A DNA stretch of 50,508 bases, taken from positions 1 through 50,508 of the IMG/VR virus record IMGVR_UViG_3300013117_000343; one strand, written 5' to 3'. The position numbers and the translations under genes are program-made. The stretch is from a virus. The notes under the pieces are model-generated. The model had not been told where the DNA came from. It was given only the letters and a program-made list of their open reading frames with translations, and made no database searches. This document shows positions 4,225 through 50,185 of the stretch, piece by piece; the stretch's first letter is position 1, and each line of letters opens with the position of its first letter.

Positions 4225-5490
4225 CTATTCCTCCAATCTTTTAACTATGTTGTTGTAGTAGGTGTTATCTAACTCTATCCCTATCCCTATTCTACTAAGT
4301 TCCTTAGCCGCAACAATGGTGCTTCCGCTTCCTGCAAAGGGGTCTAATACTTTTTCACCAGGAAGGCTAGATAAACCAATAAGACCTCGCAAGAACTCTG
4401 TTGGCTTTTCCGTTGGGTGGATTTTCTTATTAGAGGGGACCCTCTTAATTGAGAAGATATCTCTAGGTGTTCCATTAAGTTTCCTCCCTCCTTTCCTACA
4501 ATAGAAGAATGGTTCGTAAGAGGAGGTAAAGTTAACAGACTGACTTGGAAAACCTCCACTGAGTTTGTCCCAGATTAGTGGGATGTGGTGGACCTGGAAG
4601 CCTACTTTTTCCAGTAGCTCTTTAATTTTGTTGTAATGTTGACATCCGAAGAAGATGTAAGCGTGCCTGTCATCCTTTAAAATGCGGAACATTTGAGCGA
4701 AGGCCTTATCCAACATGTCAAGGATGGTGAATTCATCATCTGGGCAGGGATATACCTTGTTGTGGGTCTTTTTAAAGGACTCGGCTTCGCCTAGGTTTAT
4801 CCCAAAGGGTGGGTCGGCTATGATAAGGTCAATTGACCCAGTTTCCATCTTTCCCATCTCCTTCACACAGTTGCCATGGATGATGTTGGGTGTTGCTATT
4901 ATCTTGCTGGTTTTAAGCCTCTTAGCTAGTTCAGCGTTTAGGATGTCTTCCTGCTTTTGCTTTAACTTTTTAAAAGCTACACTTTTGGACTTCTCTTTTT
5001 TGAGTTCGGGGAAGGCTTTCATTCCCCTAGCTAAAGCTATATCCATGGAGACTGTTCCCATACTTTCACCAAGGGCTTCAGCAGTGTCTCTCAACTTCCA
5101 ACCATCAGAGTCGTGTCCTTTAACTGCACTTCCATAAATCTTCTGTTTAAGTTTGTGAAGCTCAGCTTTTGCATTAACTTCCTCTTGCCAAGTGAAGGCT
5201 TCCCGCTGGATATTCTCCTCTAACTCAAGCTCTTTCTTCTCAAGTTCGTTCAGGTCCTTTCGAAACTTAACCTCAATTGAGCCCCACCTCTCCTCATTTT
5301 TAGTCCGTTTGAGTATTGAGAGGCAGGCTCGGAGCCTTCTCTCACCAGCTATTAACCTGTTCTTGTCATCTATTACAATTGGGTGGATTAAACCATAGGT
5401 CATAATAGATTGGGCAAGTTTGTCTACTCCCTCAAACTTCTTTCTAAACCTACTTCCTACTTGGATTTCGGTTATTTTAATTTTGGGCAT
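4225..5490 (-). CDS. ParB-like N-terminal domain fused to a DNA methyltransferase
   Basis: A 421-residue fusion. The first ~100 residues are a ParB/sulfiredoxin-type domain with the signature IAGERRLRA (about 48-56) and the ENIQREAFTW segment, followed by a helix-turn-helix stretch near 130-155. The C-terminal half is a beta-class amino-methyltransferase: catalytic DPPF at 226-229 comes before the AdoMet-binding FAGSG near 385, giving N6-adenine or N4-cytosine methylation of DNA. The start is the ATG at 5490, behind GGAGGAG and overlapping the upstream stop (TGATG). Such fusions are common on phages and mobile elements and may methylate at bound sites or protect against restriction. No matching nuclease gene is seen. 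Confidence 0.9.
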   Translation of the reverse strand: MPKIKITEIQVGSRFRKKFEGVDKLAQSIMTYGLIHPIVIDDKNRLIAGERRLRACLSILKRTKNEERWGSIEVKFRKDLNELEKKELELEENIQREAFTWQEEVNAKAELHKLKQKIYGSAVKGHDSDGWKLRDTAEALGESMGTVSMDIALARGMKAFPELKKEKSKSVAFKKLKQKQEDILNAELAKRLKTSKIIATPNIIHGNCVKEMGKMETGSIDLIIADPPFGINLGEAESFKKTHNKVYPCPDDEFTILDMLDKAFAQMFRILKDDRHAYIFFGCQHYNKIKELLEKVGFQVHHIPLIWDKLSGGFPSQSVNFTSSYEPFFYCRKGGRKLNGTPRDIFSIKRVPSNKKIHPTEKPTEFLRGLIGLSSLPGEKVLDPFAGSGSTIVAAKELSRIGIGIELDNTYYNNIVKRLEE

Positions 5491-5870
5491 CACTCCTCCA
5501 ATATTTTAATTTTGGTGAATTTGAGTCCTATTGCTTCTTTGTGAGTCATTGTCTTTCCGTCTACTACTACTATTCGTGAGCTAGGTAGACCCTTTATTGG
5601 GTTTAGTTTCTTATCTTTATCTACTGATATCATAAAGGGCGGCTGGTCTGGTTTAAGCTCTGGTTGGATTACTACGGGTTTAGTTGGCTCTGGTTTAATC
5701 TTATCATCTTTTCCACAGAGGTGCGTAATGTCAATTGTGTCCTTTCCCTCAAGTCCACTGATTATCTCATCAAGCATGAGCTTAGCACAGTCTGCTTTAA
5801 TCTCAAGCTCGTGTATGTCCTTGGTGGTGTTAAGCATCTTACTTACTGCTCTAAGCATGTTTATTATCAT
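5490..5870 (-). CDS. Hypothetical protein, helical N-terminus
   Basis: A 126-residue protein of unknown function. The start is taken at ATG 5870 because AAGGAGG precedes it. Residues 1-50 look helical, residues 60-85 are Pro and Lys rich (linker), and the C-terminus is more ordered. The stop overlaps the ParB/methyltransferase start, suggesting co-translation. A copy of the dispersed 23-bp palindrome ends immediately before its ribosome binding site. Confidence 0.65.
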   Translation of the reverse strand: MIINMLRAVSKMLNTTKDIHELEIKADCAKLMLDEIISGLEGKDTIDITHLCGKDDKIKPEPTKPVVIQPELKPDQPPFMISVDKDKKLNPIKGLPSSRIVVVDGKTMTHKEAIGLKFTKIKILEE

Positions 5871-8467: not shown

Positions 8468-8695
8468 CTACATTTTTACTAGTTTAAATACTACGATGTT
8501 CCTTACATCTTTCCTAGCCTTTAGCTTCTTAACTATAGCTAAAGCCTTCTCCTTAGTGTTAGCAAAATATACTGGGTCTGATTCTACTTCGTAGAATATT
8601 GCATACTTTGCTTTTTTAGGGTTACCACGTATTACATCAATGCTCATTTTTGCCCGTGCCCGTGTGTCATTACCCCAATAACCGAAACATGCCAT
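8468..8695 (-). CDS. Hypothetical 75-aa protein
   Basis: Starts MACFGYWGNDTRARAK right after the radical SAM gene, using GGGGTGA as ribosome binding site. The second half (NTKEKALAIVKKLKARKDVRNIVVFKLVKM) alternates strand, helix and strand like a small ferredoxin-like or swapped-hairpin fold. No catalytic motif. It is last in the metabolic cassette before the recombination module. Confidence 0.6.
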   Translation of the reverse strand: MACFGYWGNDTRARAKMSIDVIRGNPKKAKYAIFYEVESDPVYFANTKEKALAIVKKLKARKDVRNIVVFKLVKM

Positions 8696-8696
8696 C

Positions 8697-9548
8697 TCAA
8701 TTCACCCCCTTCCCCTTAATCTCAACTGAACAGTGCCCCCACTCTTGAAACCTATTAAACTTCACCTTTACATCACATGGGTTGCACACCCCATATTCTT
8801 CACATCTTCTAAACCCTCTAATTAACTTAACCTTATCATTTAATATGTGACCCATTGGGTTAATATCATTGTAGAGGTCATGATGACATCTAAAAATAAA
8901 ACCAGAGGGGTTTATCAAGAGCTCAGAAGGCTTACACTTAACAGTTAGTTTTCTAAGTTTAGTGCAAGCATTTTGATATTTGTAAGTGTTCTTCTCCCAA
9001 CCAGTGCTTAAAAACCTTTTAGTTCTAAAGTCTATGCCCCTCTCCTTACACATCCTAATCATAGACCTGTTAGTGTTCATAAACATAATATTATCAAATC
9101 CCCAGATGCCCACCTTATACCCCATCTTTTGAAGGGTGTGAACCTTGCTAACCATCTCAGCTTGATTGGTTTTTTTGTGTAGGCTAAACCTAATACTGGC
9201 ATATTTAGCTCTTCTTTTAAATACGTAAGGGTCAACTCTACTTACGAACTCATCCAGGTTAAACATACCATTAGTTACTAGGTCTAACCCTATCCCCTTA
9301 CGATATAAACCATCTACTATGGTATAAAATTGTGGGTGGATAGTCGGCTCTCCTCCTTGGAGAGTAAGAGGTAGGTCTGCTCTGTTCTGTATGCGAGCCA
9401 AACCATCTATCCACCCCGTAGCTCCTAACTCCTCCGTCTTAACGAGCCTGTCGAACCTATTGATACAGTAGGTGCAAGCCATGTTACACCGAAAAGTTAA
9501 GAAAACTCCTACGTAGTTATAAGTTTTGGGTAGTGTGATTGGTCTCAT
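8697..9548 (-). CDS. Radical SAM enzyme with C-terminal cysteine cluster
   Basis: A 283-residue radical SAM protein. CNMACTYC (Cys21, 25, 28) is the CxxxCxxC loop that binds the [4Fe-4S] cluster and S-adenosylmethionine; LQGGEPTIHP is the GGEP motif and DLVTNG a later barrel strand. Further cysteines in the last 70 residues (RCHHDLY, CEEYGVCNPC, HCSVE) suggest an auxiliary SPASM/twitch-like cluster, as in enzymes modifying peptides, sugars or cofactors. The gene overlaps the E1-beta-like gene by 32 bases. Substrate unknown; the neighbourhood suggests a joint pathway with the thiamine-diphosphate pair. Confidence 0.9.
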   Translation of the reverse strand: MRPITLPKTYNYVGVFLTFRCNMACTYCINRFDRLVKTEELGATGWIDGLARIQNRADLPLTLQGGEPTIHPQFYTIVDGLYRKGIGLDLVTNGMFNLDEFVSRVDPYVFKRRAKYASIRFSLHKKTNQAEMVSKVHTLQKMGYKVGIWGFDNIMFMNTNRSMIRMCKERGIDFRTKRFLSTGWEKNTYKYQNACTKLRKLTVKCKPSELLINPSGFIFRCHHDLYNDINPMGHILNDKVKLIRGFRRCEEYGVCNPCDVKVKFNRFQEWGHCSVEIKGKGVN

Positions 9549-10056
9549 ATAAGTCCTTTTCTTCTATTACCAAAGTTGGTAATGGTGAGATAAACATACT
9601 GTTGTAGAGGCTTTGTATTCTCTCAGGTTTTACTAATCGGACGGTTGTGATGTGGGGCTCAAACACGTTGGTGAAGTCATGGTTGTGTTGAAGACCTACA
9701 TCAAATTTGCCATCCTGGGAACCAATTATCGCTCTGATTAGGATTGGAAGAGTGAATTGCCCACCACTCATCTTCGGCACTAGAGCCATGTGGTTTATAA
9801 TTGCATCGGCGGCTATTAGCATGAAGTCCATTCTTTGGAACACCACTATAGGTTTGTAGCCTTGCATCGCAAGACCTATTGCAGCCCCTGCAATTAAGTT
9901 TTCGCAGATGGGCATCTCTAAGCATTTTTTCGCATTTACTTTGGTCATGGTGCCATATATATCTCCTGCGTTTTTTAACCCTTCTCCGAGGAACACGGTC
10001 TTTGGTTGTTCTCCTAGCCATGTCATCACCTCCGTTAGTTCTTGTTTATAGGTCAT
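9517..10056 (-). CDS. Minimal E1-beta-like (PYR-domain) thiamine-diphosphate subunit
   Basis: A 179-residue protein matching the pyrimidine-binding domain of 2-oxoacid dehydrogenase E1-beta/transketolase proteins: FLGEGLKNAGDIYG, the Glu segment PICENLIAGAAIGLAMQG and SGGQFTLPILIRA. Ordinary E1-beta subunits are about 320 residues and add a C-terminal transketolase domain, which is missing; the protein ends soon after VRLVKP. The E1-alpha-like partner is two small genes upstream. Together they could form one active site for decarboxylation or C2 transfer. No E2 or E3 gene is present, so a classical dehydrogenase complex is unlikely. Ribosome binding site AAAGGAG. Confidence 0.85.
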   Translation of the reverse strand: MTYKQELTEVMTWLGEQPKTVFLGEGLKNAGDIYGTMTKVNAKKCLEMPICENLIAGAAIGLAMQGYKPIVVFQRMDFMLIAADAIINHMALVPKMSGGQFTLPILIRAIIGSQDGKFDVGLQHNHDFTNVFEPHITTVRLVKPERIQSLYNSMFISPLPTLVIEEKDLYETNHTTQNL

Positions 10057-10199
10057 ATTATCTCCTTTATTTTCTCTTTTTTATATTCATAGCCGCACAA
10101 AGGGCATTTTTCGTGTTGAATGCCAAACTCTGCATGGCAGTTACCACATGTTACTTCAACTTTTACAATCCCTAATCTAATTAGGTCTTTAAGTTTCAT
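10053..10199 (-). CDS. Zinc-ribbon protein, 48 aa
   Basis: Begins MKLKDLIRLG and contains CGNCHAEFG and CPLCGYEY, a four-cysteine zinc ribbon, with a Lys-rich tail. Its TGA overlaps the ATG of the E1-beta-like gene (ATGA), indicating coupled translation. No clear ribosome binding site of its own. It may be an adaptor of the neighbouring enzyme pair. Confidence 0.65.
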   Translation of the reverse strand: MKLKDLIRLGIVKVEVTCGNCHAEFGIQHEKCPLCGYEYKKEKIKEII

Positions 10200-10350
10200 T
10201 AGTTTGTTTTTGCCTTATGCTGTCAAGCACCTCCCATGTAGTGGGTTTATCAAGCCGCTTTAGAAATCGTATTTACCTTTCCAAAGGATAAAACCCTTGG
10301 TGCCATAGAAATAACAATTTCCATAAGAAACCATATTCCTTTACTTTCAT
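10189..10350 (-). pseudogene. Small gene split by one in-frame TAA
   Basis: From ATG 10350, behind AAAGGAGG, the frame encodes 25 residues beginning MKVKEYGFLW and ending FYPLER, meets TAA at 10273-10275, then stays open for 26 more codons (RFLKRLDKPTTWEVLDS and on) to TAA at 10189-10191. Both halves look protein-like and share one frame, so this is either a nonsense-broken gene or a 25-residue peptide. Other genes here end normally with TAA, so reassignment of that codon is unlikely. Confidence 0.4.
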
Positions 10351-10377
10351 AACTACCTCCTTTTTCTAACTACAATT

Positions 10378-10572
10378 TTAACACCCCATCCCTTCTACTG
10401 TTGCCTGTTTTATTATATCTTCTTGGGGGACACTTACATAGTGATGTTTACAAATCCAGACCTTCTTCCCATTGTGTTCTACCACCTGAAAATCTTTGGT
10501 AATGGGTTTCTTGCAGATAGGGCACTGACCCTTATCTACTCTACTAGATACAATGTTATTACATTGAGACAT
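10378..10572 (-). CDS. Small zinc-binding protein, 64 aa
   Basis: Contains GQCPICKKPI followed by WICKHHYV, a C-x2-C / C-x2-H zinc site. The ATG at 10572 is chosen because GGGGGTAGGTG precedes it; a GTG two codons earlier is possible. It overlaps the end of the E1-alpha-like gene and lies between the alpha and beta halves. Function unknown. Confidence 0.6.
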   Translation of the reverse strand: MSQCNNIVSSRVDKGQCPICKKPITKDFQVVEHNGKKVWICKHHYVSVPQEDIIKQATVEGMGC

Positions 10573-11197
10573 GTGCACCTACCCCCACGTGAGGCCACCT
10601 TCTCACATAGTTATACCTTATTATATTCCTCGCAACCATTGGTGTAAAGTTATGCCATCTCTCTTCTTTGGTGCTCTCCACCGCAAGGTCATTATCCTCT
10701 ATTATGAAGGTGAGAGGTAGACTGCGGGAGTTGCCAAACCTCACTGCCTCCATAAAATGCCCAGTGTCTTCTCCACCATCTCCCACGAAGCACCAGACAT
10801 GACCTTTAGACCTCTTCTTTTTTAATCCAAGGGCTAGACCTACAGCAATAGCACACCCTCCACCCACTATCGCTGAGGTTAGGAAGTTAATTGACTTATC
10901 GTAGATGTGCATGCTCCTTCCCTCTCCTTTGCAGATGCCACTCTTCCTACCTAAGATTTCATCATGGAGCTTTTGGGCATCTCCTCCTTTTAAGAGATAG
11001 TGGTAATGGTTTCTATGAGAACTAACTACCCAATCTTTAGGTTTAATTGAACTAAAGAGTGAGATTAGCTGCTCCTCATTTCCTCCTGATAAGTGGATGG
11101 GGCAGGAAATCTTACCTTGTTTAAATAAAGTCTTAATGTTCTCCTCAAACCCTATGAGCTCTTCCTTTGTCCATCTCTTATTAGGTATACTCTTCAT
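10559..11197 (-). CDS. Minimal E1-alpha-like (PP-domain) thiamine-diphosphate subunit
   Basis: A 212-residue protein aligned by motif with E1-alpha subunits of 2-oxoacid dehydrogenases: SSHRNHYHYLLKGGD, ILGRKSGICKGEGRSMH, a Gly-Ala helix GGGCAIAVGLALGL, and the metal/thiamine-diphosphate loop GDGGEDTGHFMEAVRF reaching the metal-ligand Asn in EDNDLAVES. Typical E1-alpha chains run 320-400 residues; this one stops shortly after the cofactor loop. With the E1-beta-like partner it forms a stripped-down TPP enzyme. The ATG overlaps the TGA of the upstream membrane-peptide gene. Capsule and lipopolysaccharide loci also carry E1-like pairs, a hint rather than proof of role. Confidence 0.87.
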   Translation of the reverse strand: MKSIPNKRWTKEELIGFEENIKTLFKQGKISCPIHLSGGNEEQLISLFSSIKPKDWVVSSHRNHYHYLLKGGDAQKLHDEILGRKSGICKGEGRSMHIYDKSINFLTSAIVGGGCAIAVGLALGLKKKRSKGHVWCFVGDGGEDTGHFMEAVRFGNSRSLPLTFIIEDNDLAVESTKEERWHNFTPMVARNIIRYNYVRRWPHVGVGAHVSM

Positions 11198-11409
11198 CTT
11201 AATATCTTTGATACCTCCATCATCGCCTCTATTTTACCGTTTATGAGCAATGGGTGATAAATACCCTGTTGACTTTTAATTACATCAAGGTATTTATTCA
11301 TGCTCTTTAATATCCTTATGCTCTCCCTTATCTTACCTATTTCAAACCAGACCTTCGCTGTTATTATAAGACATAAAATGTGGAATAAAGTAACTATCAA
11401 AGTCCCCAT
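11194..11409 (-). CDS. Single-pass membrane protein, 71 aa
   Basis: An N-terminal membrane helix (about residues 3-22, LIVTLFHILCLIITAKVW) is followed by a charged helical tail (EIGKIRESIRILKSMNKYLD). It overlaps the B12-type radical SAM gene by 13 bases and the E1-alpha-like gene by 4. It could tether the cassette to the membrane; inference only. Confidence 0.6.
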   Translation of the reverse strand: MGTLIVTLFHILCLIITAKVWFEIGKIRESIRILKSMNKYLDVIKSQQGIYHPLLINGKIEAMMEVSKILR

Positions 11410-12755
11410 ACTCTCCTCCTTGTCTCTAATCTAATCCGATTTAGCTCTTCCAGGGAAACTCCCATCATCCCTGCTATCTTTTTAGCCTTAAGAGTTGAGC
11501 TAAAGTTAATCCTATCCCACTCATAGGCTCTAATCATAGTTATCTCCTTAGAGGTGAACTCTGAGGTCTCTATTTGACCCTCTCTCCAGCTATCTCCCTC
11601 TTTTAGGCACTTCCCTTTGACGCACATGTCCCACAGGCGAGTATGTTTAAGAGGGGTGGCTGTAAAGACCTTAGTATAATCGGCGTCTATATACTCGGCT
11701 ACTTTAAGGGTCTTTCTAATCTCAGTCCAGGTCTCCCCTGGGAAACCTATGATGAAATTAGCCGCCACAAAGATACCATACTCTTTAGCATCTTGTATAA
11801 CACATTTGGCGTCTTCTAAGTCTATCCTTTTACCTATGATTTCCCTTTGAACTCTCCTGCTTCCACTCTCAATGGCTACATCGATATACTTACAGCCGCT
11901 CTTAGCCATAAGTCCAATCATCTCATCATCCATTTTGATTACTGAGGTAGCTATCATAGACCAAGGCATAGTGAGACCTCTCCTAATCATCTCTTGGAAA
12001 AGACTCTTAGCCCTCTTCTCATTATATAGTAGGTTATCGTCGTCAAAAATAAGAGACTTAATCTTATAATCCTTCTTAAGCCAGCTAATCTCTTCAATAA
12101 CATTTTCTACACTCCTTCCTCTCCAGCGTTTGCCCATTATCTCCTCTACTTGACAGAAACAACACCCATACGGACAGCCCCTAGACGTTATAATGCGTCC
12201 ATAAGGATACGAACACGGAGCGTCTACACTTTTCCGTATGGGTGGTTTATTTATATATGATTTTAAATCAATTAAGTCGTATGCGGGTAGGGGGAGTTCA
12301 TTTAACTTTTGGATTGGGAGGGCTTGGTGAATACCATGCCAACTATAGCCAAGGGTTATTTGGTTCATTAGGTATTCTCCCTCTCCCTTGACTATTATAT
12401 CTATCTCTGGAGCTTTTATTAAGATGTCAGCGTTCATACTGGGAGATACTCCTCCAACTACTACTTGTATTTTTTTAGATACAGCTTTAACTGCTTTGGC
12501 GGCTCTAAGAGTGGCTCCAAGTTGAGAGTCTATCATAGTAGTTATACCTACCATGTCTGGTTTCTCTTTCTCTACACGTTTTGCAAATACTGATGTTTCT
12601 AAGTCCTCTTTATAAGCATCTATTATATTTACCATAGTCCCATTCTTTCTAACTTTGGCGGCAAGGAGGCATAGATTGTAAGGTATGTAATCCCAGAGGA
12701 AATCCTTGTTTGTCTCACTCCATCTAAAGTTGGGGACTACAAGGGTTAGGTTCAC
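11397..12755 (-). CDS. Radical SAM enzyme with cobalamin-binding-like N-terminal domain
   Basis: A 452-residue protein of the B12-binding radical SAM class. Residues 1-140 form the Rossmann-like domain (MVGITTMIDSQLG, VVVGGVSPSMNADILI, IIVKGEGEYL); the classical DxHxxG histidine is not seen, so cobalamin binding is uncertain. Cys194, Cys198 and Cys201 (CPYGCCFC) form the cluster loop, followed by LIFDDDNLLYN and IDVAIESGS, usual for this class. Members methylate, cyclise or rearrange unactivated carbons in lipids, antibiotics and cofactors. GTG start. Context: between a 181-aa unknown and the E1-like genes. Confidence 0.9.
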   Translation of the reverse strand: MNLTLVVPNFRWSETNKDFLWDYIPYNLCLLAAKVRKNGTMVNIIDAYKEDLETSVFAKRVEKEKPDMVGITTMIDSQLGATLRAAKAVKAVSKKIQVVVGGVSPSMNADILIKAPEIDIIVKGEGEYLMNQITLGYSWHGIHQALPIQKLNELPLPAYDLIDLKSYINKPPIRKSVDAPCSYPYGRIITSRGCPYGCCFCQVEEIMGKRWRGRSVENVIEEISWLKKDYKIKSLIFDDDNLLYNEKRAKSLFQEMIRRGLTMPWSMIATSVIKMDDEMIGLMAKSGCKYIDVAIESGSRRVQREIIGKRIDLEDAKCVIQDAKEYGIFVAANFIIGFPGETWTEIRKTLKVAEYIDADYTKVFTATPLKHTRLWDMCVKGKCLKEGDSWREGQIETSEFTSKEITMIRAYEWDRINFSSTLKAKKIAGMMGVSLEELNRIRLETRRRVWGL

Positions 12756-13297
12756 AAGTCCTCCCTATTATCCCTCATCATGTTTAATGTCTCTTTGTTA
12801 AGTATCCTAAATGAGTGTAATTGCCTTCTAAACTCAAACTCTACCATCTCCTCCTCATAGAATACATACTCTATTACGGCCTTTCTGCCTGCTATTGAGA
12901 TAGGTAGACATACTCTTATATGACGAGAATGATTATGTATTGTCATTTCTTCTGGGTAATACTTAATAAAGTTAAATATCCTGCCCCTGATATAATTAGC
13001 AAGCCTTGTCCTAATCTTCTTCTGGCTCCATTTGTAATTAAGGCGTTCTTGTAACCAATTTCCTATAGCGTGTATTTCTTCTCTCCTTTTAGGAGCATTC
13101 TTAATAAACCTGTGTATAGTATTGTTAATCCTCCTATCAGGATTGTTTTGGGACACCAGCTGGGGTCTTAATCCCGTGGTGAGTGGAAGTGTCATTATAA
13201 GTAACATTAAACATACCCTATCCATATCCACAGTCAGGTTCCCCCTCACTATCCTCAACTGCCCACTCACATATGTGTGGAATTTGACTCTCACCAC
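12752..13297 (-). CDS. Hypothetical 181-aa protein
   Basis: No family recognised. From the GTG at 13297 the first residues are beta-like, then a hydrophobic segment (MDRVCLMLLIMTLPLTTG) that could be a signal or membrane helix if translation starts at ATG 13225. The rest is basic and helical (KRREEIHAIGNWLQERLNYKW) with a beta-rich end. The start is uncertain: neither candidate has a clear ribosome binding site. A 27-codon frame from ATG 13302 (MSGESQIPHICEWAVEDSEG) ends over ATG 13225, so coupled initiation there is possible. It overlaps the next gene by 4 bases. Confidence 0.5.
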   Translation of the reverse strand: MVRVKFHTYVSGQLRIVRGNLTVDMDRVCLMLLIMTLPLTTGLRPQLVSQNNPDRRINNTIHRFIKNAPKRREEIHAIGNWLQERLNYKWSQKKIRTRLANYIRGRIFNFIKYYPEEMTIHNHSRHIRVCLPISIAGRKAVIEYVFYEEEMVEFEFRRQLHSFRILNKETLNMMRDNREDL

Positions 13298-13326
13298 TCA
13301 TAATACACTTTGTGAAAGGGCAAAGT

Positions 13327-13704
13327 TTACTGCGACTGATGCCTAATTTTAACCTCTCTAAACCCCTTCTTAGTAGTCCTGTTAATCTCATTTTTATACT
13401 CCACTCTCTTCCTGTTAAGGTTTCTAATAGCTATTGCCCTTCTCCCTATCTCAGAGAGAGTAAACTTCTTCTCGCCGCCTTTCCTAATTTCATTCTCCAG
13501 GTTCCAAATGTCTATATTTGCCATAGTAAGTCTAATAGTTGCTGTTATTAAGTGAGAATTTATTCCTGAAGCATTGAGTCCCTTGATTATACTTTGGTAT
13601 TCAGGATATGCTGCTTCCTCACCAAAATATATTTTACGAATGAGAATTGAAAGCTTGTCTATTACATCACCAAGAGAGTATTGAGGTAGTTTAGACTTTT
13701 TCAC
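13327..13704 (-). CDS. DUF6165-like small protein
   Basis: A 125-residue protein. SLGDVIDKLSILIRKIYFG, MANIDIWNLENEIRKG and IGRRAIAIRNLNRKRVEYK resemble the short helical DUF6165 family (pattern DKLSILEIK, LWxIEDxIR, TNDxRAxxKxxIN), found near glycosyltransferase and lipopolysaccharide genes. The function of that family is unknown. Starts at GTG 13704 behind AAGGA. Its presence next to radical SAM and E1-like genes strengthens a link of the cassette with sugar or envelope chemistry. Family assignment is from memory of the pattern only. Confidence 0.55.
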   Translation of the reverse strand: MKKSKLPQYSLGDVIDKLSILIRKIYFGEEAAYPEYQSIIKGLNASGINSHLITATIRLTMANIDIWNLENEIRKGGEKKFTLSEIGRRAIAIRNLNRKRVEYKNEINRTTKKGFREVKIRHQSQ

Positions 13705-13895
13705 AATTTTTATCCTTTCTATGAATTGTCATGTGCTCACTAAATGTGACAACTGCACTACTACCGCAGTATACGTATTTTGTTATTTGACAGTATACTC
13801 TGTTTATATGCCTTTTTTTATGGGTGTATTCAACGTATGGTCTACCATTTTTATATTTTACTTTGTTAATATTTATAGGTGTTCCATTATAACTC
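13691..13895 (-). other. Open frame without a standard start, cysteine/histidine rich
   Basis: Just after the TGA at 13896-13898 a frame of 67 codons stays open to TAA at 13691-13693, with protein-like content (INKVKYKNGRPYVEYTHKKR, then YCQITKYVYC and SEHMTIHRKDKNC, a possible zinc finger). It contains no ATG until late, and the preceding CxxC gene ends in another frame at 13887. It could be the second half of that gene joined by a frameshift, a decayed gene, or use a rare start codon. Confidence 0.35.
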
Positions 13896-14090
13896 CATAA
13901 CTTTCAATAATATACTAAAACATCTCTTGCAAACGTGCATCTTCTTAACAAATTCTATTCTATTAGGGGGAGATAATAGAATACCTCCAAACTCTTCAAG
14001 TCTTTCTTTACAAAAATAGCAGATAGGTTTTATGCCTATTCCCTCTTTTCTCCTTCTTCTCCTAGCATCGCTATACTTATGCTTCCCCAT
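13887..14090 (-). CDS. Small zinc-binding basic protein, 67 aa
   Basis: Starts MGKHKYSDARRRRRKEG at ATG 14090, behind GGGAGGA. Two cysteine pairs, CYFCKERL and CKRCFSI, are spaced as in an HNH-like or zinc-ribbon fold, but no catalytic His-Asn is visible in this frame. The following startless frame also carries Cys and His residues, so the intact ancestral protein may have been longer. Confidence 0.6.
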   Translation of the reverse strand: MGKHKYSDARRRRRKEGIGIKPICYFCKERLEEFGGILLSPPNRIEFVKKMHVCKRCFSILLKVMEL

Positions 14091-14154
14091 AAATCCTCCC
14101 ATCATTTATCATCTTACACACTTCCATTAGGTCTTTGTCTACTTTCTCTCTCAT
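14077..14154 (-). CDS. Micro-protein, 25 aa
   Basis: Begins MREKVDKDLMEV, helical and charged. Its ATG overlaps the end of a copy of the dispersed palindrome and its 3' end overlaps the next start, the arrangement seen at 26751-26772. No ribosome binding site; the palindrome might act in initiation. Reality uncertain. Confidence 0.4.
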   Translation of the reverse strand: MREKVDKDLMEVCKMINDGRIYGEA

Positions 14155-14175
14155 AATTTCAATTTTTGAACTTAC
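14153..14175 (-). promoter_or_regulatory. Dispersed 23-bp palindrome, copy 2
   Basis: Read leftward, GTAAGTTCAA, 3 nt, TTGAAATTAT. It begins at the stop codon of the 31-aa membrane peptide gene and ends at the ATG of the 25-aa gene, so it fills the whole junction. Confidence 0.75.
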
Positions 14176-14270
14176 TACTTCCAAAGTAATGCACACACCA
14201 CATAAGCAATCCCATTAACTATTAGTGTTATCCCTATCAGCATCATCGTTGGGTTTTTAACCTCTATCAT
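14175..14270 (-). CDS. Membrane micro-protein, 31 aa
   Basis: Begins MIEVKNPTMM followed by one membrane helix (LIGITLIVNGIAYVVCALLW). The ATG overlaps the upstream TGA (ATGA) and AAAAGGAGG lies upstream. Function unknown. Confidence 0.6.
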   Translation of the reverse strand: MIEVKNPTMMLIGITLIVNGIAYVVCALLWK

Positions 14271-14365
14271 TGTTTGCCCCCGCCTCCTTTTCCTTCTGCC
14301 ATTAAATTATCCATTATTCTTAACATTTCCTTTTCACTTACAACATCCCCTAATTTATATGTCAT
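14267..14365 (-). CDS. Micro-protein, 32 aa
   Basis: Begins MTYKLGDVVSEKEML, helical, with a Gly-rich end. GAAGGAGAGG precedes the ATG, and its stop is coupled to the next membrane peptide. Function unknown. Confidence 0.55.
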   Translation of the reverse strand: MTYKLGDVVSEKEMLRIMDNLMAEGKGGGGKQ

Positions 14366-14395
14366 ATTAGTCCTCTCCTTCCCCTAAATCTTCTT

Positions 14396-15079
14396 TTACC
14401 CTTCATTCTCTTTTATTACATCCTCGATTTTTAAATCATCACCCCATTGGGATATATAAAATAAATCTTTACAATCTTTCACCATGCCAAAAACTATCGG
14501 GTCGGGAACATTTTGCACATGTGCAACAACAAACTCCGAAAAACAATCTAATTTTTTTGCTTTAACTACATTGTCCAGCACATATTCAGGGGGTGTTGTG
14601 TCCCATTCTCTTAATGGTGTTAACTTTACCTCCTTTTGCTTGTTAACCCTTTCGGATACTTTACCACCATAATGCAATAAACAGATAAAGCCAGCTAGGC
14701 AGACTCCAGAAATAATGGACGGCCACAATAAGACATTGTTTTCTTTGACCAAGTAAGACAAGCTAGTAATTGACACAAATAAACTTAATAAAGCACCCAA
14801 AAAAGTTAGGTTAGCTAATAGCTGTAGTCTCTTACGGTTGTTTAAACTTTTCTCAAAATCGTCCAAATTTTTAGGTGTTACATATTTATAATGTTCATAT
14901 GCTACTGCTCTTCCCTTTGATACAACAACCTTAGATTTAATGCATTCTAACACTTTAACTAGCCCACACATTTCCAGCTTCGCTAAATAATCTTCAATGT
15001 GTGGATTAAGCTCAACTGCTTCTCTTTTTTTAGCTTTCTCAGCTAACTTAAGTAATGCCCATTTGTCTCCCATTTTCAT
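14396..15079 (-). CDS. Two-pass membrane protein, 227 aa
   Basis: Residues 1-80 are cytoplasmic-like and basic, two hydrophobic helices follow (about 87-108 and 116-137), and a soluble C-terminal domain of ~80 residues ends acidic. The N-terminal part (HIEDYLAKLEMCGLVKVLEC) resembles a winged helix, so a membrane-bound sensor or regulator is conceivable. Starts behind AAGGAGGAGAG. No family recognised. Confidence 0.65.
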   Translation of the reverse strand: MKMGDKWALLKLAEKAKKREAVELNPHIEDYLAKLEMCGLVKVLECIKSKVVVSKGRAVAYEHYKYVTPKNLDDFEKSLNNRKRLQLLANLTFLGALLSLFVSITSLSYLVKENNVLLWPSIISGVCLAGFICLLHYGGKVSERVNKQKEVKLTPLREWDTTPPEYVLDNVVKAKKLDCFSEFVVAHVQNVPDPIVFGMVKDCKDLFYISQWGDDLKIEDVIKENEG

Positions 15080-15146
15080 CTCTCCTCCTTATCTATTAAC
15101 CCCTCCTCAATATCACAGGTTCTTTAACTAAACATTCATTACAAAA

Positions 15147-15254
15147 CTAAGCCTTAACTTTTTTATTAGGCGCAAAATCAAATACAGGCCTCCACTTACC
15201 ATTACCCTTAGTAATCTCAAAGTATTTATTGCAATGATAGCAGTTGTTACTCAT
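15147..15254 (-). CDS. Cysteine-pair micro-protein, 35 aa
   Basis: Begins MSNNCYHCNKYFEITKGNGK at ATG 15254, behind AGAGGAG; one CxxC pair and a basic tail. It lies right after the intein-bearing radical SAM gene and may be co-expressed with it. Confidence 0.5.
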   Translation of the reverse strand: MSNNCYHCNKYFEITKGNGKWRPVFDFAPNKKVKA

Positions 15255-15270
15255 TGGCTTCTCCTCTATT

Positions 15271-17304
15271 CTAAATAAAGTTAATATGCTCAGGTGGATT
15301 AAGGTAGTTCCATATGAATGCATTTGTGAAATCATGGCGGCACGAGCCAGCACACATAGTATGCACATCAAAATCTTCCCTCATATACTTAATTATATGC
15401 CAATACCTATCACTATCAATAATCTCTTTTAGAGTATTTTTCTTAAGGTCACCATAACAATAATCACTATTATTGAATAGATAACCACAAGGGTAGCATT
15501 TAGAATTCCCACTAATTTGAAAAATAAGGGGACAATCTACACATCTATCATAAGGTCTCCTACCCTTACTCGCTATCATCCCCCATTTAGGGACAATTTT
15601 AGTCTTATCATTAGATAGCTTCTGAGCTTGTTTCAACACCTCTAACACTCTCTTATTATCATACCAGTTTAAATTAAAGTGGGACATACCCTTACACCCT
15701 GGGTCAGAGAACTGTTTAATTACGAAATAGTCAACTCCCTCTCTTACTGCCCACTTAGCCTCTGGTATTACTTGCTCAAGACAGTCAGGTATAAACACCA
15801 TCTGAAGTCCAATGGTGCACTTATACCCTTTAGTTTTCTTAATATAGATTGCAGAACGGATAGCGGCCTGCACACGCTCCCACTGAGGAACACCATGAAT
15901 GGTTTTATATCCTCCTGAGTCAACGGCAGATAGGTTGAAGCGAAGCCATGTGCAGGTGGAGAGAAGAATTCTTAACTTAGTCTCATCTAAAAAGATACCA
16001 TTTGTTGCAAATCCTATGTCTAACCCCCACTTCTTACCCTCAATACAAGCATCATAGACGGCTGGGTTAAGTGTAGGCTCCCCATCTCCCGTGAGGGTAA
16101 GAGACTTAACTCCCAAGTATGGGGCATCTATAAAAAGTTTAATGAGTATATCTCTTGGTATAACATCCATTGACATCTTTTGATGTATACCATAACAATT
16201 GTGAACACAAAGTCCTTTTGCAATAAATGTATGACTTTCGGTTGTTAGGTCATACACTTCAGTAACTCTTCCGATTGACACAAAATTAACTCTTAATACG
16301 CCCTCAATTTTACAATCAAAAGCTTTTTCAAACTTTCTTGTTATAGCGGGAGTTGTTACTTGCATAAATCTAATACGATTTTCATAACCTTTTGTAACTC
16401 TTACCACTTTTACACTTTTACCATAATCCTCTAACGTGTTTGGAATGTGGAGCTTGTTCAATGACAATGTTATCATATGCAATACAGAAGTGTCGCTATT
16501 AGATATTCTCAAATTGTTTCCGCTTATACTTCCTTCAGCGTCAAAAATACCTCCAAGGTATCCTCTGTAGAAGCTTTGACTTTGCCCCAACAATAAGTCT
16601 TTGTAACTTATAAATTTTTTAAGAAGATGTGTGTGCTCTTTTCCTATTACATAAAGCTTATGCTTACTTCTTTTATAAGAAACAATGAAACCTATATCAA
16701 TTAGGTATTGATAGGCTCTATCAAGGGCTTCTATGTCAATCATGTCCAATCTCATATGATAGGTAGAGTATCTAGGTGATATATTAAATGTGCCATCACC
16801 ATCTATTATTCCTTTTACATAACCTATTTTGTAATCTCTATCTATTAACTGTATAGGTATTTGCTTTCCTATGTAATGAACATCATTATTATTCGTTAGT
16901 TTTCCAGCATCTTTCCATCCTCTATGTTTGACAAGGACTTGGTGGTCTGGAGTAATCTCTAATGTTTCTCCATTTGTAAAGTGCACTACATTGGTGATAG
17001 CCATTCTTTTGTGGATATCTGTAACAGTGGTATATTTTAATCTTCTTTGCTTATGTATATTTCCAATCTCATCAAAACCTATAACAGTGTCCCCAACCTT
17101 GACATCTTTTATTGGCTTTGTGCCCAAAGGTGTGGTTATTGGTGTATCTCCTGTTACACAATAAATACATTTAGCATTACACCTCTTAGTAGCACCAATA
17201 TCTATATGGAGGGGATATATTTTCCAACTGTTTCGGTAGTGGTTATTAACCCTGTCCAGGTGCCATAAGAGTTTACACCCATCAAAAAGGTAGGGGTTAT
17301 CCAC
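15271..17304 (-). CDS. Radical SAM/SPASM enzyme interrupted by an intein
   Basis: A 677-residue precursor: 48 N-terminal host residues, a 321-residue intein (49-369) and 308 C-terminal host residues. Splicing restores RCNAKCIYCYG, the CxxxCxxC loop for the [4Fe-4S]/AdoMet site; the intein sits exactly before the third cysteine. The mature ~356-residue enzyme also has LTGDGEPTLNP, IGFATNG and a C-terminal SPASM-like cysteine set (DRCVDCPL, KCYPCGY, CYGDL, CAGSC), typical of enzymes acting on peptides or carrying auxiliary clusters. Without splicing it should be inactive. GTG start behind GGAGG. Third radical SAM gene of the cassette; substrate unknown. Confidence 0.92.
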   Translation of the reverse strand: MDNPYLFDGCKLLWHLDRVNNHYRNSWKIYPLHIDIGATKRCNAKCIYCVTGDTPITTPLGTKPIKDVKVGDTVIGFDEIGNIHKQRRLKYTTVTDIHKRMAITNVVHFTNGETLEITPDHQVLVKHRGWKDAGKLTNNNDVHYIGKQIPIQLIDRDYKIGYVKGIIDGDGTFNISPRYSTYHMRLDMIDIEALDRAYQYLIDIGFIVSYKRSKHKLYVIGKEHTHLLKKFISYKDLLLGQSQSFYRGYLGGIFDAEGSISGNNLRISNSDTSVLHMITLSLNKLHIPNTLEDYGKSVKVVRVTKGYENRIRFMQVTTPAITRKFEKAFDCKIEGVLRVNFVSIGRVTEVYDLTTESHTFIAKGLCVHNCYGIHQKMSMDVIPRDILIKLFIDAPYLGVKSLTLTGDGEPTLNPAVYDACIEGKKWGLDIGFATNGIFLDETKLRILLSTCTWLRFNLSAVDSGGYKTIHGVPQWERVQAAIRSAIYIKKTKGYKCTIGLQMVFIPDCLEQVIPEAKWAVREGVDYFVIKQFSDPGCKGMSHFNLNWYDNKRVLEVLKQAQKLSNDKTKIVPKWGMIASKGRRPYDRCVDCPLIFQISGNSKCYPCGYLFNNSDYCYGDLKKNTLKEIIDSDRYWHIIKYMREDFDVHTMCAGSCRHDFTNAFIWNYLNPPEHINFI
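16198..17160 (-). mobile_element. Full-size intein with LAGLIDADG homing endonuclease
   Basis: Splice block A starts with Cys1 (CVTGDTPITTPLG, with KVGDTVIGF behind it); block B has NGETLEITPDHQVLV with the conserved His; two LAGLIDADG-type motifs, YVKGIIDGDG (residues 162-171 of the precursor) and YLGGIFDAEG (249-258), form the endonuclease; blocks F/G read VYDLTTESHTFIAKGLCVHN, ending His-Asn, with Cys as the +1 residue. All catalytic positions are present, so splicing and homing look functional. Confidence 0.93.
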
Positions 17305-19963: not shown

Positions 19964-20083
19964 TTACTTATGGTTATGGTAGCTTCCAAAAATTGCGGCA
20001 ATTATAATAATAGTCCAAGCTGGATGTAACCACACAAACTCAAATAATCTCTCTATCACCTTATTTGTCCAATGCCAATTCAC
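19964..20083 (-). CDS. Single-pass membrane peptide, 39 aa
   Basis: GTG start at 20083 with GGAGG 8-10 nt upstream. The sequence ends in one membrane helix (HPAWTIIIIAAIFGSYHNHK) after a Trp-rich amphipathic part. Function unknown; one of several tiny membrane proteins in the early block. Confidence 0.55.
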   Translation of the reverse strand: MNWHWTNKVIERLFEFVWLHPAWTIIIIAAIFGSYHNHK

Positions 20084-20098
20084 TTAACAAACCTCCAA

Positions 20099-20488
20099 TT
20101 AATCCACCATTCCCAATCTTTTCATCAATGCCTCTCTCTTCTCTGGAGGCAAATTCTTAAACGCTTTAGTAATAGGGTCATCCTTAGCCCTCACTCCCCT
20201 AACCTTAGTCTTAACTTTAGGCAGATGTGTCCTCCCCTTCCTCAACTTCCCAATACTCTCCCTCAACTCATCCTCACTCATACTTGCAACAGTAGACTGA
20301 TAGCTTGGTGCACTCTCCTGTATAACCTTCCACTCCTTATCCTCTCCCAAGTCAATCAGAGTAGAACCCCCTTTATAAGTCTCAGGCTTCATATAAGTAA
20401 TTCCCATCTCACTCTCCACTACCCAGTTAACAAGAGCCTCAAACACTTCTCCCTCAACTGTCTTACTTATAATATCACCCTTCTTCAT
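20099..20488 (-). CDS. Hypothetical 129-aa protein
   Basis: Start ATG 20488 (a TTG one codon earlier is possible), overlapping the upstream gene end by 14 bases. The N-terminal half is beta-rich (KGDIISKTVEGEVFEALVNW); the C-terminal half is basic and helical (LPKVKTKVRGVRAKDD, LPPEKREALMKRLGM). Its last ten residues look like a peptide that docks on a partner. Function unknown. Confidence 0.6.
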   Translation of the reverse strand: MKKGDIISKTVEGEVFEALVNWVVESEMGITYMKPETYKGGSTLIDLGEDKEWKVIQESAPSYQSTVASMSEDELRESIGKLRKGRTHLPKVKTKVRGVRAKDDPITKAFKNLPPEKREALMKRLGMVD

Positions 20489-20675
20489 CAAACCAACCCT
20501 TCACCAAATCATAAAACTTTTTATCAAAACTCAACACCATTGCTATCTCTTCTACACTCTCGGGCTCAACCTTATCCCCTATAAGTTTGACCAGCATCCC
20601 TCTATACCCACTATCACTCTCATAAACCTTCACCCTCTTATCCTTCAAAGTTACTCTATACATTACTTTCCGCAT
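20475..20675 (-). CDS. Hypothetical 66-aa protein
   Basis: ATG 20675 with GGGAGGTG upstream. Begins MRKVMYRVTLKDKRVKVYES, beta-rich, then acidic and helical. It overlaps genes on both sides. Function unknown. Confidence 0.55.
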   Translation of the reverse strand: MRKVMYRVTLKDKRVKVYESDSGYRGMLVKLIGDKVEPESVEEIAMVLSFDKKFYDLVKGWFDEEG

Positions 20676-32194: not shown

Positions 32195-33124
32195 ATGGCG
32201 AAGAAGAAAGTAAAAGAGGAGAAAATAGTTCCAAAGATACTGATAGGGGTTCCCATCCTAAGTTGGTCTCACGAGTTCGCTGAGAGCTTCCTTAGGTTTT
32301 GGACAGAGCTTATGACTTATAGGCATAAGGGAACTAAGTTTCATGTTGCGTATAAGTTTATGCACAGAATGCCCGTTCACATGGCTGAAGAGAGGCTCGT
32401 GGACCTAGCAATCGAAAGTGGTTGCACTCATCTTTTACTAATGGATGATGATGTTTACGACGTAACAGCAGATATGTTTCTTAAACTGTTGAGTGACGAT
32501 AAGGATATAGTTGGGGGTGTAATGCACGCTTCAGGCTTTCCTTATGCGATGTGTGCTTTTAGAAGATATGATACCAAGCAGAAGGTGGCTAATATGCCAA
32601 TTCTTAAAGGTCCAGCTCGTCTTTATGAGGTGCCTCCAGACCAAAGGAAGGGTCTTCAAAAGGTAGACCTTATGGCTTACTGTTTTACCCTATTTAAAGT
32701 TGATGTCTTCAAGAAGCTTAAAAAACCTTGGTTTAAATGTAATACCCAGGCACCCACCGACAGTTGGTTTAGTGATAGTGTGTTGGATGCAGGCCTCGAA
32801 TACTATGTTGACTTCAGCATTTGGGTCAATCATAGGGGAGTAACTATACAGAACGTAGCACTCTGGCGTCAAATGGGGAGTCTTAAAATTCAAAATGATG
32901 CAGCTAGGATGATAGTGCTATCCCCAGAAGAGATGAGAAGACATGAGGCTTACATGACACTTAGACTTGAGACCGCTGAGAAAGCGTTAAAGTCTGAGGC
33001 TAAGGAGAAACTAACTTTCTTTCAAAAGAAGAGGGGGAAGAACCCAATAGGAACTGTTGTTGTAAAGGATGGGAAGGATGAGAAGGGAACTTTAGGTAAA
33101 CGGGAAGTCAACAAACGACACTAA
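32195..33124 (+). CDS. GT-A-like glycosyltransferase in the structural operon
   Basis: A 309-residue protein. KILIGVPILSWSHEFAESFL opens a Rossmann-like fold; THLLLMDDDVYDVTADMF has the metal/nucleotide-sugar DxD motif (Asp84-86), followed by GGVMHASGFPYAMCAFRRYD, as in GT-A enzymes. The catalytic core ends near residue 240; the rest is a basic helical tail. It may glycosylate capsid or tail protein, the host envelope, or modified DNA. Its site between capsid and tail genes and its own leader structure favour expression with virion genes. Confidence 0.78.
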   Translation: MAKKKVKEEKIVPKILIGVPILSWSHEFAESFLRFWTELMTYRHKGTKFHVAYKFMHRMPVHMAEERLVDLAIESGCTHLLLMDDDVYDVTADMFLKLLSDDKDIVGGVMHASGFPYAMCAFRRYDTKQKVANMPILKGPARLYEVPPDQRKGLQKVDLMAYCFTLFKVDVFKKLKKPWFKCNTQAPTDSWFSDSVLDAGLEYYVDFSIWVNHRGVTIQNVALWRQMGSLKIQNDAARMIVLSPEEMRRHEAYMTLRLETAEKALKSEAKEKLTFFQKKRGKNPIGTVVVKDGKDEKGTLGKREVNKRH

Positions 33125-48785: not shown

Positions 48786-48866
48786 ATGGATGTTGAGAGG
48801 ATAGTATTAGGTTTAATAGTAATAGCATGGATATGCTTGGCAATTAAAGCTTGGAGAAACTTATGA
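48786..48866 (+). CDS. Membrane micro-protein, 26 aa
   Basis: Begins MDVERIVLGL and is almost one membrane helix (IVLGLIVIAWICLAIKAW). Its TGA overlaps the ATG of the ATP-grasp gene (ATGA). Could be a small holin-type peptide or an anchor. Confidence 0.55.
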   Translation: MDVERIVLGLIVIAWICLAIKAWRNL

Positions 48867-50185
48867 GAGTCTTCTTATTTATAAGTAAAGCTGGAGACTC
48901 TCTTCCTATTGCCCAAAGGGTAATGGAAGAGGGACATAGGGTCATCTTCCACATAAATGAAAAGGATAAGAGGAGAGTAGGAGAGGGTCTCATTGAGAAG
49001 TCCCCAGTTAAGGAAGTTTTAATCTCTAAAGAGGGAGAACTTAATAAAGGTATACTTAAGTATATCTTATACCCTAAACCCGGCTGCATAGTCTTCGACA
49101 TGGTAGGTAAAGGGTATGGTAAGGCGGCTGACCTTCTTAGAAAGAAAGGCTTCCCAGTAATTGGTGGAAGTTATTGGGGAGACCAGGTAGAGCTTGATAG
49201 GCCTTATGGAAACAAAATTATGAAAATGGCTGGCATAAACACTCCCAAAACCTACACTTTTAATGATTATCCAACTGCTATTAAGTTTGTGGAGAGCACC
49301 AACTTACCCTACGTTTACAAACCTTCTGGTAATCAGCCCACTACCACAACCTATATAGCTCAAAAAGCTGACGACTTAGTTGGTATTCTTGAGTATTACT
49401 CTGATATAAAAGAGGAATTTGAACTCCAAGAGAAAGTGGAAGGTATAGAGATAAGCACCGAACTCTGGTTTAACGGAAGTTCTGTCCTGAGTGTTAATCA
49501 CACCATGGAAGAAAAAACGTTAATGGAAGGGGGGATAGGTCCTAAGACTGGTTGCATGGGGGATGTAGTATGGATTGGCACTCAGGATTCTAAACTTTAC
49601 AGGGAGGGTATTGGTAAGATGGTCTCTATTCTAAATAAGGTTAAGTATAGGGGCCCTATAGATTTAAACACAATAGTAACTAAAAGTAAACTCTATGGGT
49701 TGGAGTTTACTGCACGCTTTGGGTATAATGCACTCTTTAGTCTACTGGAGCTTTACTCTGGTAGGTTGGGAGACCTTTTGTATGGTGTGGCTTCAGGTTC
49801 CACTAAGAGTTTAAACTTTAAAAAGGGTTGGTCAATTAGTGTGACCTTCAACTTGGAACCATACCCAATGGATGTAGAACCCGATTATTCTAAAGATATA
49901 CTTGTGCAGGGGATTAGTAGACAGAATTTAAAGCACATTTGGTTTTATGATGTTTATAAAAAGGGAGATAGTTTTGCTTGCTCAGGTAATGGAGGGAATT
50001 TAGGTTGTGTAACAGCGAGAAGTCTCTCAGGTTCTACTGGAGATGAGAATACAGTTAGGGAGGCTAAGAGGAGGGCTTATAGAACCCTCTCTAATTTAAT
50101 TATCCCTGATGTGATGTATAGGAGAGATATAGGGCTTAGAGTTCCCTCTGAGTATGGGCAGTTAAAGGAGTGGGGTTGGCTATGA
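48863..50185 (+). CDS. PurD-like ATP-grasp ligase
   Basis: A 440-residue enzyme from ATG 48863 (TTGGAGA upstream). KPSGNQPTTTTYIAQ is the ATP-binding lysine strand; LQEKVEGIEISTELWF and GLEFTARFGYNALF carry the acidic metal/ATP residues; GIGPKTGCMGDVVW matches the GPNTGGMG signature of phosphoribosylamine-glycine ligase. The N-terminal MRVFLFISKAGDSLPIAQRV is the usual Rossmann-like domain. It ligates a carboxylate to an amine using ATP. Whether it makes purines or a special amide is open, since no other purine genes are present. Confidence 0.82.
   Translation: MRVFLFISKAGDSLPIAQRVMEEGHRVIFHINEKDKRRVGEGLIEKSPVKEVLISKEGELNKGILKYILYPKPGCIVFDMVGKGYGKAADLLRKKGFPVIGGSYWGDQVELDRPYGNKIMKMAGINTPKTYTFNDYPTAIKFVESTNLPYVYKPSGNQPTTTTYIAQKADDLVGILEYYSDIKEEFELQEKVEGIEISTELWFNGSSVLSVNHTMEEKTLMEGGIGPKTGCMGDVVWIGTQDSKLYREGIGKMVSILNKVKYRGPIDLNTIVTKSKLYGLEFTARFGYNALFSLLELYSGRLGDLLYGVASGSTKSLNFKKGWSISVTFNLEPYPMDVEPDYSKDILVQGISRQNLKHIWFYDVYKKGDSFACSGNGGNLGCVTARSLSGSTGDENTVREAKRRAYRTLSNLIIPDVMYRRDIGLRVPSEYGQLKEWGWL

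Follow-up and report, generated by a model that had tools for sequence, protein, structure and literature searches.

The window analysed here, a linear IMG/VR virus record of 50,508 nucleotides (IMGVR_UViG_3300013117_000343), was found to carry a cassette in which two radical S-adenosylmethionine (SAM) enzymes, named rSAM_A and rSAM_C, are encoded together with a miniature thiamine diphosphate (ThDP) enzyme pair (E1alpha and E1beta), a small DUF-like protein and, at a distance, a glycosyltransferase. We are almost certain that the cassette is one functional unit, and put the probability that it is a glycan pathway at about 0.75. In related loci the ThDP enzyme has been repeatedly swapped for unrelated versions, an interchange among three superfamilies that was missed by a preliminary description of the window made from its sequence alone; the swapping suggests that the chemistry of this one step is indispensable and subject to selection for variation.

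The combination of E1 and radical SAM genes recurred in dozens of viral contigs from several lineages and in three contigs from cellular metagenome-assembled genomes (MAGs; Desulfobacterales, Deltaproteobacteria and Nanoarchaeota), most of the compared records being fragments and the cellular genome contigs being covered by one scan. No cultured isolate with the cassette turned up in the collections searched. Of the 55 radical SAM matches in E1-bearing records 30 kb or longer, 35 lay within 5 kb of E1 (7.5 expected), and none of 20,000 random placements reached 35. When records were picked by E1 alone and the window's own phage was excluded, 27 of 50 had E1 and radical SAM genes no more than 5 kb apart, closely related records in this sample not being independent. 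The co-occurrence search across related phages thus bore out the preliminary description, which had proposed that the genes form one conserved unit: all the genes that it named were present where it had placed them, and they were neither single and scattered nor each a housekeeping enzyme, the outcomes it had set against its own proposal.

The E1 loci fell into two main settings. A radical SAM gene was nearby in 73 of 165, most of the others having an HldE-like gene, which was present in 4/73 of the radical SAM loci. A zinc alcohol dehydrogenase gene was detected at 84/92 E1 loci without radical SAM and at 3/74 with it; in one case (L118, 8369-10519, plus strand) a 716-aa protein fuses the dehydrogenase to mini E1alpha and E1beta. 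This near-exclusive distribution fits each E1 needing a carbonyl-making partner, with the zinc alcohol dehydrogenase as an alternative carbonyl maker replacing the radical SAM enzyme. On the E1alpha tree, whose rooting is uncertain owing to a very long branch to the outgroup, the radical-SAM-partnered E1s were scattered at the base, and most HldE-type E1s formed one supported clade (49 rows). Another lineage carried an overlapping E1beta-rSAM_C-E1alpha trio with two glycosyltransferase-like genes between the major head and tail tape measure genes. Two further arrangements were observed. The 735-kb phage LR756501 (L009, 10397-12615, plus strand), with nine radical SAM matches in its record, has such a trio within an extended series of glycosyltransferase-like and methyltransferase-like genes, and the Desulfobacterales MAG (L162, 5863-10935, plus strand) has a run of GT2, rSAM_A, rSAM_C, E1alpha, E1beta and a second rSAM_C that adjoins apparently chromosomal housekeeping genes.

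A reciprocal scan was performed with rSAM_A alone, a query that is blind to ThDP enzymes and therefore an independent test of the linkage. A ThDP enzyme was present in 46 of the 52 usable loci (39/44 after dereplication at 90%), and by Pfam these enzymes were of three types: the E1 pair (n = 26), a split mini-transketolase without the third domain (n = 15) and an acetolactate-synthase-like enzyme (n = 5), which usually adjoined a class I aminotransferase gene. Five of the six loci with none (L287, L302, L311, L322 and L329) were short or cut contigs, and L315 represented a real absence within 10 kb. At least 11 type changes were counted by parsimony on the rSAM_A tree, a number that rests on moderately supported branches; in one sister pair with about 80% identical rSAM_A, L319 carries the transketolase and L323 the acetolactate-synthase-like enzyme. 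None of 50 glycosyltransferase-family loci lacking rSAM_A carried any of the three ThDP types. In L326 (7349-12554, plus strand) the acetolactate-synthase-like enzyme, a class I aminotransferase, rSAM_A, a glycosyltransferase-like gene and rSAM_C form a single run, and the aminotransferase gene suggests an amino-group variant of the product.

Three of the nine ThDP superfamilies (DC, TK and alphaKADH2) are the only ones known with ketone acceptors, and each of them, through DC enzymes such as YerE, TK enzymes and alphaKADH2 E1 pairs, has known or proposed roles in sugar branching (2025 review, PMC12247030). The ThDP enzymes seen at the rSAM_A loci belong to exactly these ketone-using superfamilies, which supports sugar branching.

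The mini ThDP pair of the window, predicted as E1-alpha- and E1-beta-like genes in the preliminary description, consists of the two halves of a single phage family, phrog_34187. E1alpha (10559..11197, minus strand, 212 aa), the diphosphate-binding half, matched PF00676 (E1_dh) with 76 bits, TIGR03182 with 128 bits and PHROG 34187 over residues 5-198; E1beta (9517..10056, minus strand, 179 aa), the pyrimidine-binding half, matched PF02779 (Transket_pyr) with 42 bits and PHROG 34187 over residues 237-405. The gap between the two genes showed no excess of RNA structure over shuffled sequences (z -0.8). The ThDP motif GDG...N was conserved (G139, D140 and N169 in 167-169 of 169 E1alpha rows), and the catalytic Glu52 and His124 were invariant in 78/78 E1beta rows, whose relatives are mostly about 150-230 aa long. 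The homology, the motif and the catalytic residues are those of the alphaKADH2 type, but the complete E1beta with a transketolase C-terminal domain was not found; judging by these residues, the phage pair probably acts like the alphaKADH2 class in truncated form, and we do not file it as an ordinary member. Neither the transketolase C-terminal domain (PF02780) nor the E2 core (PF00198) was detected in 21 cassette records (some of which may be fragments), the window record included, indicating that the pair is not part of a 2-oxoacid dehydrogenase complex. By profile scans, at least 543 E1alpha relatives were confirmed in viral contigs; cellular genomes yielded few. In a Desulfobacterota survey the mini E1 was present in 1 of 395 genomes, the starting genome itself, and the other 24 matches were long frames of ordinary E1alpha, so that the module is mostly viral within what was searched.

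The three proteins with CxxxCxxC motifs announced in the preliminary description all matched the Radical_SAM domain. rSAM_A (8697..9548, minus strand; PF04055, 33 bits), whose relatives co-occur with a ThDP enzyme and which belongs to the cassette core, has C21/C25/C28 together with C205, C221, C249, C255 and C258, all invariant in 13- and 19-row alignments; its five conserved C-terminal cysteines are those expected for a SPASM/twitch auxiliary cluster. In rSAM_C (15271..17304, minus strand; PF04055, 36 bits, plus SPASM, PF13186), C267, C285, C330 and C334 were present in at least 93% of 75 rows, again an auxiliary-cluster pattern, and these four extra cysteines fit a single auxiliary cluster as in BtrN. 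From these motifs both enzymes are assigned to the twitch/SPASM type, and rSAM_B (11397..12755, minus strand; PF04055, 91 bits, and PF02310, 62 bits) to the B12 type. A PDB search with an rSAM_C relative returned weak radical SAM matches only. rSAM_B, whose NCBIfam scores fell well short of every cut-off, was present in some relatives only; it is optional and not part of the core, contrary to what had first been proposed.

The preliminary description overlooked that rSAM_C is interrupted by an intein of 321 aa (16198..17160, minus strand), inserted precisely at the third CxxxCxxC cysteine. The insert separates an N-terminal extein of 48 aa that ends in ...RCNAKCIY (17161..17304, minus strand), delimited by alignment with intein-free relatives, from a C-terminal extein (15271..16197, minus strand) that begins at Cys+1, and the junctions read ...TKRCNAKCIY / CVTGDTPITTPLG...FIAKGLCVHN / CYGIHQK.... 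The third cysteine of the triad would thus be intein Cys1 before splicing and Cys+1, as the third cluster cysteine, once spliced. Hint, LAGLIDADG and intein_Cterm domains were all matched (PF14890, PF01079, PF14528 and TIGR01443 of NCBIfam), and the intein is of class-1 type, with Cys1, a TPDH block B, ...VHN/Cys+1 and two intact LAGLIDADG motifs. The closest rSAM_C relatives (L012 and L014, 69% identical over aligned positions) have an empty site, CNAKCIYCYG. A distant 707-aa relative in another virus record (L020, 7154-9277, plus strand) has a different intein at the same residue, with junctions RCNHDCFFC / LVAGT...VVHN / CVYAQ, the first bar being placed after the shared cysteine. Of 136 rSAM_C frames, just two distinct ones were long, those of the window and L020, two further long rows coming from the window's own phage; judging by the two insertions, the third-cysteine site has been invaded at least twice.

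Alignment of NCBIfam NF038136 (Rv2578c-type radical SAM) extended across both intein junctions, with a score of 74 against a cut-off of 700. The match to this intein-containing family covers the intein and both CxxxCxxC flanks, so the same insertion site is probably known already in another radical SAM family, which differs from that of rSAM_C; no paper on Rv2578c with an intein was found. In the virus Rctr197k (L257, 10792-14061, plus strand), an intein related to that of the window lies in a 'radical SAM protein-like' product of 1089 aa. It was considered as an equivalent case and rejected, the precursor showing no CxxxCxxC and the intein lying outside any such motif.

The glycosyltransferase gene (32195..33124, plus strand) is separated by one open reading frame (ORF) from the major head gene upstream of it, and is conserved in the window's clade. 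In the unrelated phages L224, L225, L229 and L232 a contiguous operon E1alpha-E1beta-rSAM_A-rSAM_C-DUF-glycosyltransferase was observed, with the glycosyltransferase homologue last (L225/L092 and L229/L232 are paired examples; L230 has the same operon, but with the DUF gene first). These six-gene operons indicate that the opposite-strand gene of the window belongs to the cassette as its sixth member, as had been suspected. Its AlphaFold model (25 sequences, pLDDT 84) has a GT-A fold, the sequence has an MDDD motif of the DxD type, and the nearest folds were STIV A197 (Z 18.7, root-mean-square deviation 2.3 A over 167 residues) and then lysyl hydroxylase LH3 (Z 17.9); glycosyltransferase activity is predicted from this model. 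The ATP-grasp gene that had been suspected alongside it (48851-50185, plus strand), a relative of phosphoribosylglycinamide synthetase, was rejected as a member, having been found only in the window's clade (G003, G007 and G008) and in 0 cassette records of other lineages.

The DUF-like protein (13327..13704, minus strand), whose homologues recur inside the cassettes of other phages, was modelled as four helices (pLDDT 87); no PDB fold match rose above noise and no function was assigned. Its earlier label of DUF6165-like was not sustained: no DUF6165 match was obtained at E 0.1, the sole Pfam signal was a sub-threshold DUF4254 (21 bits, cut-off 27), and no paper on DUF6165 was found.

The minus-strand run reads from 17.3 kb as rSAM_C, small ORFs, the DUF-like gene, a 181-aa ORF (12752-13297) and rSAM_B, continuing toward 8.5 kb with a 71-aa membrane ORF (11194-11409), E1alpha, a 66-aa zinc-ribbon ORF (10378-10578), E1beta, rSAM_A and a 75-aa ORF (8468-8695); further small ORFs lie at 13887-14105 and 14396-15079. 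The zinc-ribbon and membrane micro-proteins of the preliminary description are genuine open frames, yet relatives of the small ORFs were found in none of about 167 related loci, and they are therefore not conserved cassette genes. Nearly identical sequence was present in further metagenome contigs, L004, L005 and L090 among them, and the intein-bearing gene also in L005, indicating that the arrangement is no one-off assembly error. Elsewhere in the window, a DNA methyltransferase is fused to a ParB-like domain (4225-5493, minus strand), and two long frames overlap on opposite strands (20072-20584, plus; 20099-20491, minus), one of them being probably spurious.

For the glycan pathway we infer a substrate, an order of steps, an acceptor and a role for each radical SAM enzyme as follows. 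rSAM_C would first splice out its intein, bringing the [4Fe-4S] cysteine triad into one continuous chain. One of the auxiliary-cluster radical SAM enzymes would then oxidise a sugar hydroxyl to a carbonyl, the sugar being either activated or attached beforehand. To that carbonyl the mini ThDP enzyme would add an acyl unit of two or more carbons, drawn from a 2-oxo acid or a ketose. The second radical SAM enzyme, with rSAM_B where present, would carry out a further C-H modification, the GT-A enzyme would transfer the sugar, and the DUF-like protein may be a small accessory. There are precedents for both chemical steps: the twitch enzyme BtrN converts a cyclitol (inosamine) alcohol to a ketone by radical SAM chemistry (PMC9012708), and among E1-type pairs, which include AviB1/AviB2 and Pau11/Pau12 (PMC4425429, PMC4753412), AviB1/AviB2 is proposed to add an acyl unit to a keto-sugar carbonyl. 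That a carbon-branched or carbon-extended sugar is built and then attached to a surface, either a virion protein or the host envelope, by this full mechanism has, in our estimate, a little less than an even chance. A C2-extended group on a sugar, one of several options in the preliminary description, is the best-supported reading, and the DNA target that it also offered gained no positive evidence.

Several points weigh against the glycan pathway. The mini ThDP enzymes could yield a free aldehyde or ketol with no branch. All NCBIfam scores were far below cut-off, placing neither radical SAM enzyme in a characterised family, and SPASM-type enzymes act mostly on peptides. Genes for nucleotide-sugar synthesis were not recognised in the window, where the cassette adjoins replication genes and only its glycosyltransferase adjoins structural genes. 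The exclusivity between alcohol dehydrogenase and radical SAM genes is partly inherited, the HldE-associated E1s being mostly one clade.

The acceptor divides the glycan pathway from its nearest rival, in which the same enzymes remodel host lipopolysaccharide or capsule, for example through a heptose-like residue, and so block superinfection or alter receptors instead of decorating the virion. Heptose-type relatives favour the host envelope: related E1 pairs of cyanophages and many viral contigs lie in clusters with HldE-like kinase/nucleotidyltransferase, phosphoheptose isomerase and epimerase genes, and the chromosomal Desulfobacterales copy adjoins a GT2 gene. The window and the radical SAM-type clusters, however, mostly lack HldE, and in two lineages the glycosyltransferase genes lie close to the major head gene, which favours the virion as acceptor; virion glycosylation has been reported for mycobacteriophages (cited in PMC12619734). 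We consider host-surface remodelling unlikely, at roughly one chance in four. Hypermodification of phage DNA, through a base that is glycosylated or carbon-extended, would agree with the position of the window cassette among replication genes, with the weak match of rSAM_A to a QueE-like phage family and with the virus glycosyltransferases known to modify DNA (cited in PMC12619734), but a thymidylate-synthase-type (ThyA-like) hydroxymethylase was not found in the 21 cassette records, none of the cassette proteins was recognised as the product of another base-modification gene, and in another lineage the trio is part of the virion structural operon; we regard this explanation as improbable.

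We give just as little credence to peptide modification of the kind seen in ribosomally synthesised and post-translationally modified peptides, with the ThDP enzyme forming a peptide ketone or aldehyde. The SPASM match of rSAM_C and the several peptide maturases among the top NCBIfam matches speak for it, whereas the small ORFs of the window cassette have no counterparts in related loci, leaving no candidate precursor peptide, and glycosyltransferase or glycosyltransferase-like genes recur next to the cassette. Finally, the clear E1alpha/E1beta homology could point to E1 as an auxiliary metabolic enzyme supplying central carbon metabolism in infected cells (a pyruvate dehydrogenase or transketolase boost), the radical SAM genes being adjacent by accident. 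The lack of the E2 core and of the transketolase C-terminal domain in the 21 records, the strong linkage to rSAM_A and the interchange with two other ThDP superfamilies largely refute this idea, which we hold to be very improbable.

Returning to the glycan pathway, the cassette would account for phage genes, numbering in the hundreds, with similarity to transketolase, pyruvate dehydrogenase or radical SAM enzymes. That the ThDP enzyme has been replaced again and again is a natural experiment on which step matters, and it makes the product directly testable; conditional activation of a radical SAM enzyme by an intein within its active-site cysteine motif is testable as well. The mini pair also provides compact ThDP catalysts, at about 390 residues, for forming C-C bonds. 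We suggest, tentatively and with more doubt than for the mechanism above, a new glycan pathway in which a radical SAM enzyme makes a carbonyl, an exchangeable ThDP enzyme sets the branch, the branch chemistry and with it the surface epitope can change fast and, in some phages, intein splicing gates the radical SAM enzyme. In a limited search of the open-access literature, no paper was found on a phage system coupling radical SAM chemistry with ThDP carboligation, nor on a phage transketolase together with radical SAM.

The cassette was compared with known systems. STIV A197, one of several viral GT-A glycosyltransferases, is the nearest fold to the window glycosyltransferase, although the two are 20% identical and the function of the latter is predicted. 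The 'transketolase central region' protein of cyanophages S-SM2 and P-TIM68 (PHROG 34187) is a relative in which E1alpha and E1beta are fused, with 47% and 35-38% identity to the respective halves in the window; it differs in lying beside zinc alcohol dehydrogenase and heptose-type genes, in a record with no radical SAM match. BtrN, a twitch radical SAM alcohol dehydrogenase, resembles rSAM_C in its radical SAM core and four conserved auxiliary cysteines and in the proposed oxidation of an alcohol, which would yield a ketone; the PDB sequence matches obtained with an rSAM_C relative included no BtrN chain, and the function of rSAM_C is proposed by analogy. The E1alpha/E1beta-type pairs AviB1/AviB2 (avilamycin), Pau11/Pau12 (paulomycin) and KbDH-alpha/beta, sugar-branching ThDP enzymes of the alphaKADH2 superfamily, likewise occur in clusters with glycosyltransferases, and the phage pair keeps the ThDP catalytic residues; Pau11/Pau12, however, are full-length proteins (325 and 345 aa), whereas the phage pair is shorter, has no transketolase C-terminal domain and is partnered by radical SAM. 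Unlike the YerE systems, the cassette has no recognised CDP-dideoxysugar genes; the YerE-like ThDP decarboxylases of yersiniose and erwiniose nevertheless share their general TPP_enzyme_N/M/C architecture with the enzymes that replace the E1 pair in five rSAM_A loci, and their chemistry, the transfer of an acyl unit onto a keto-sugar, is that proposed here for the cassette.

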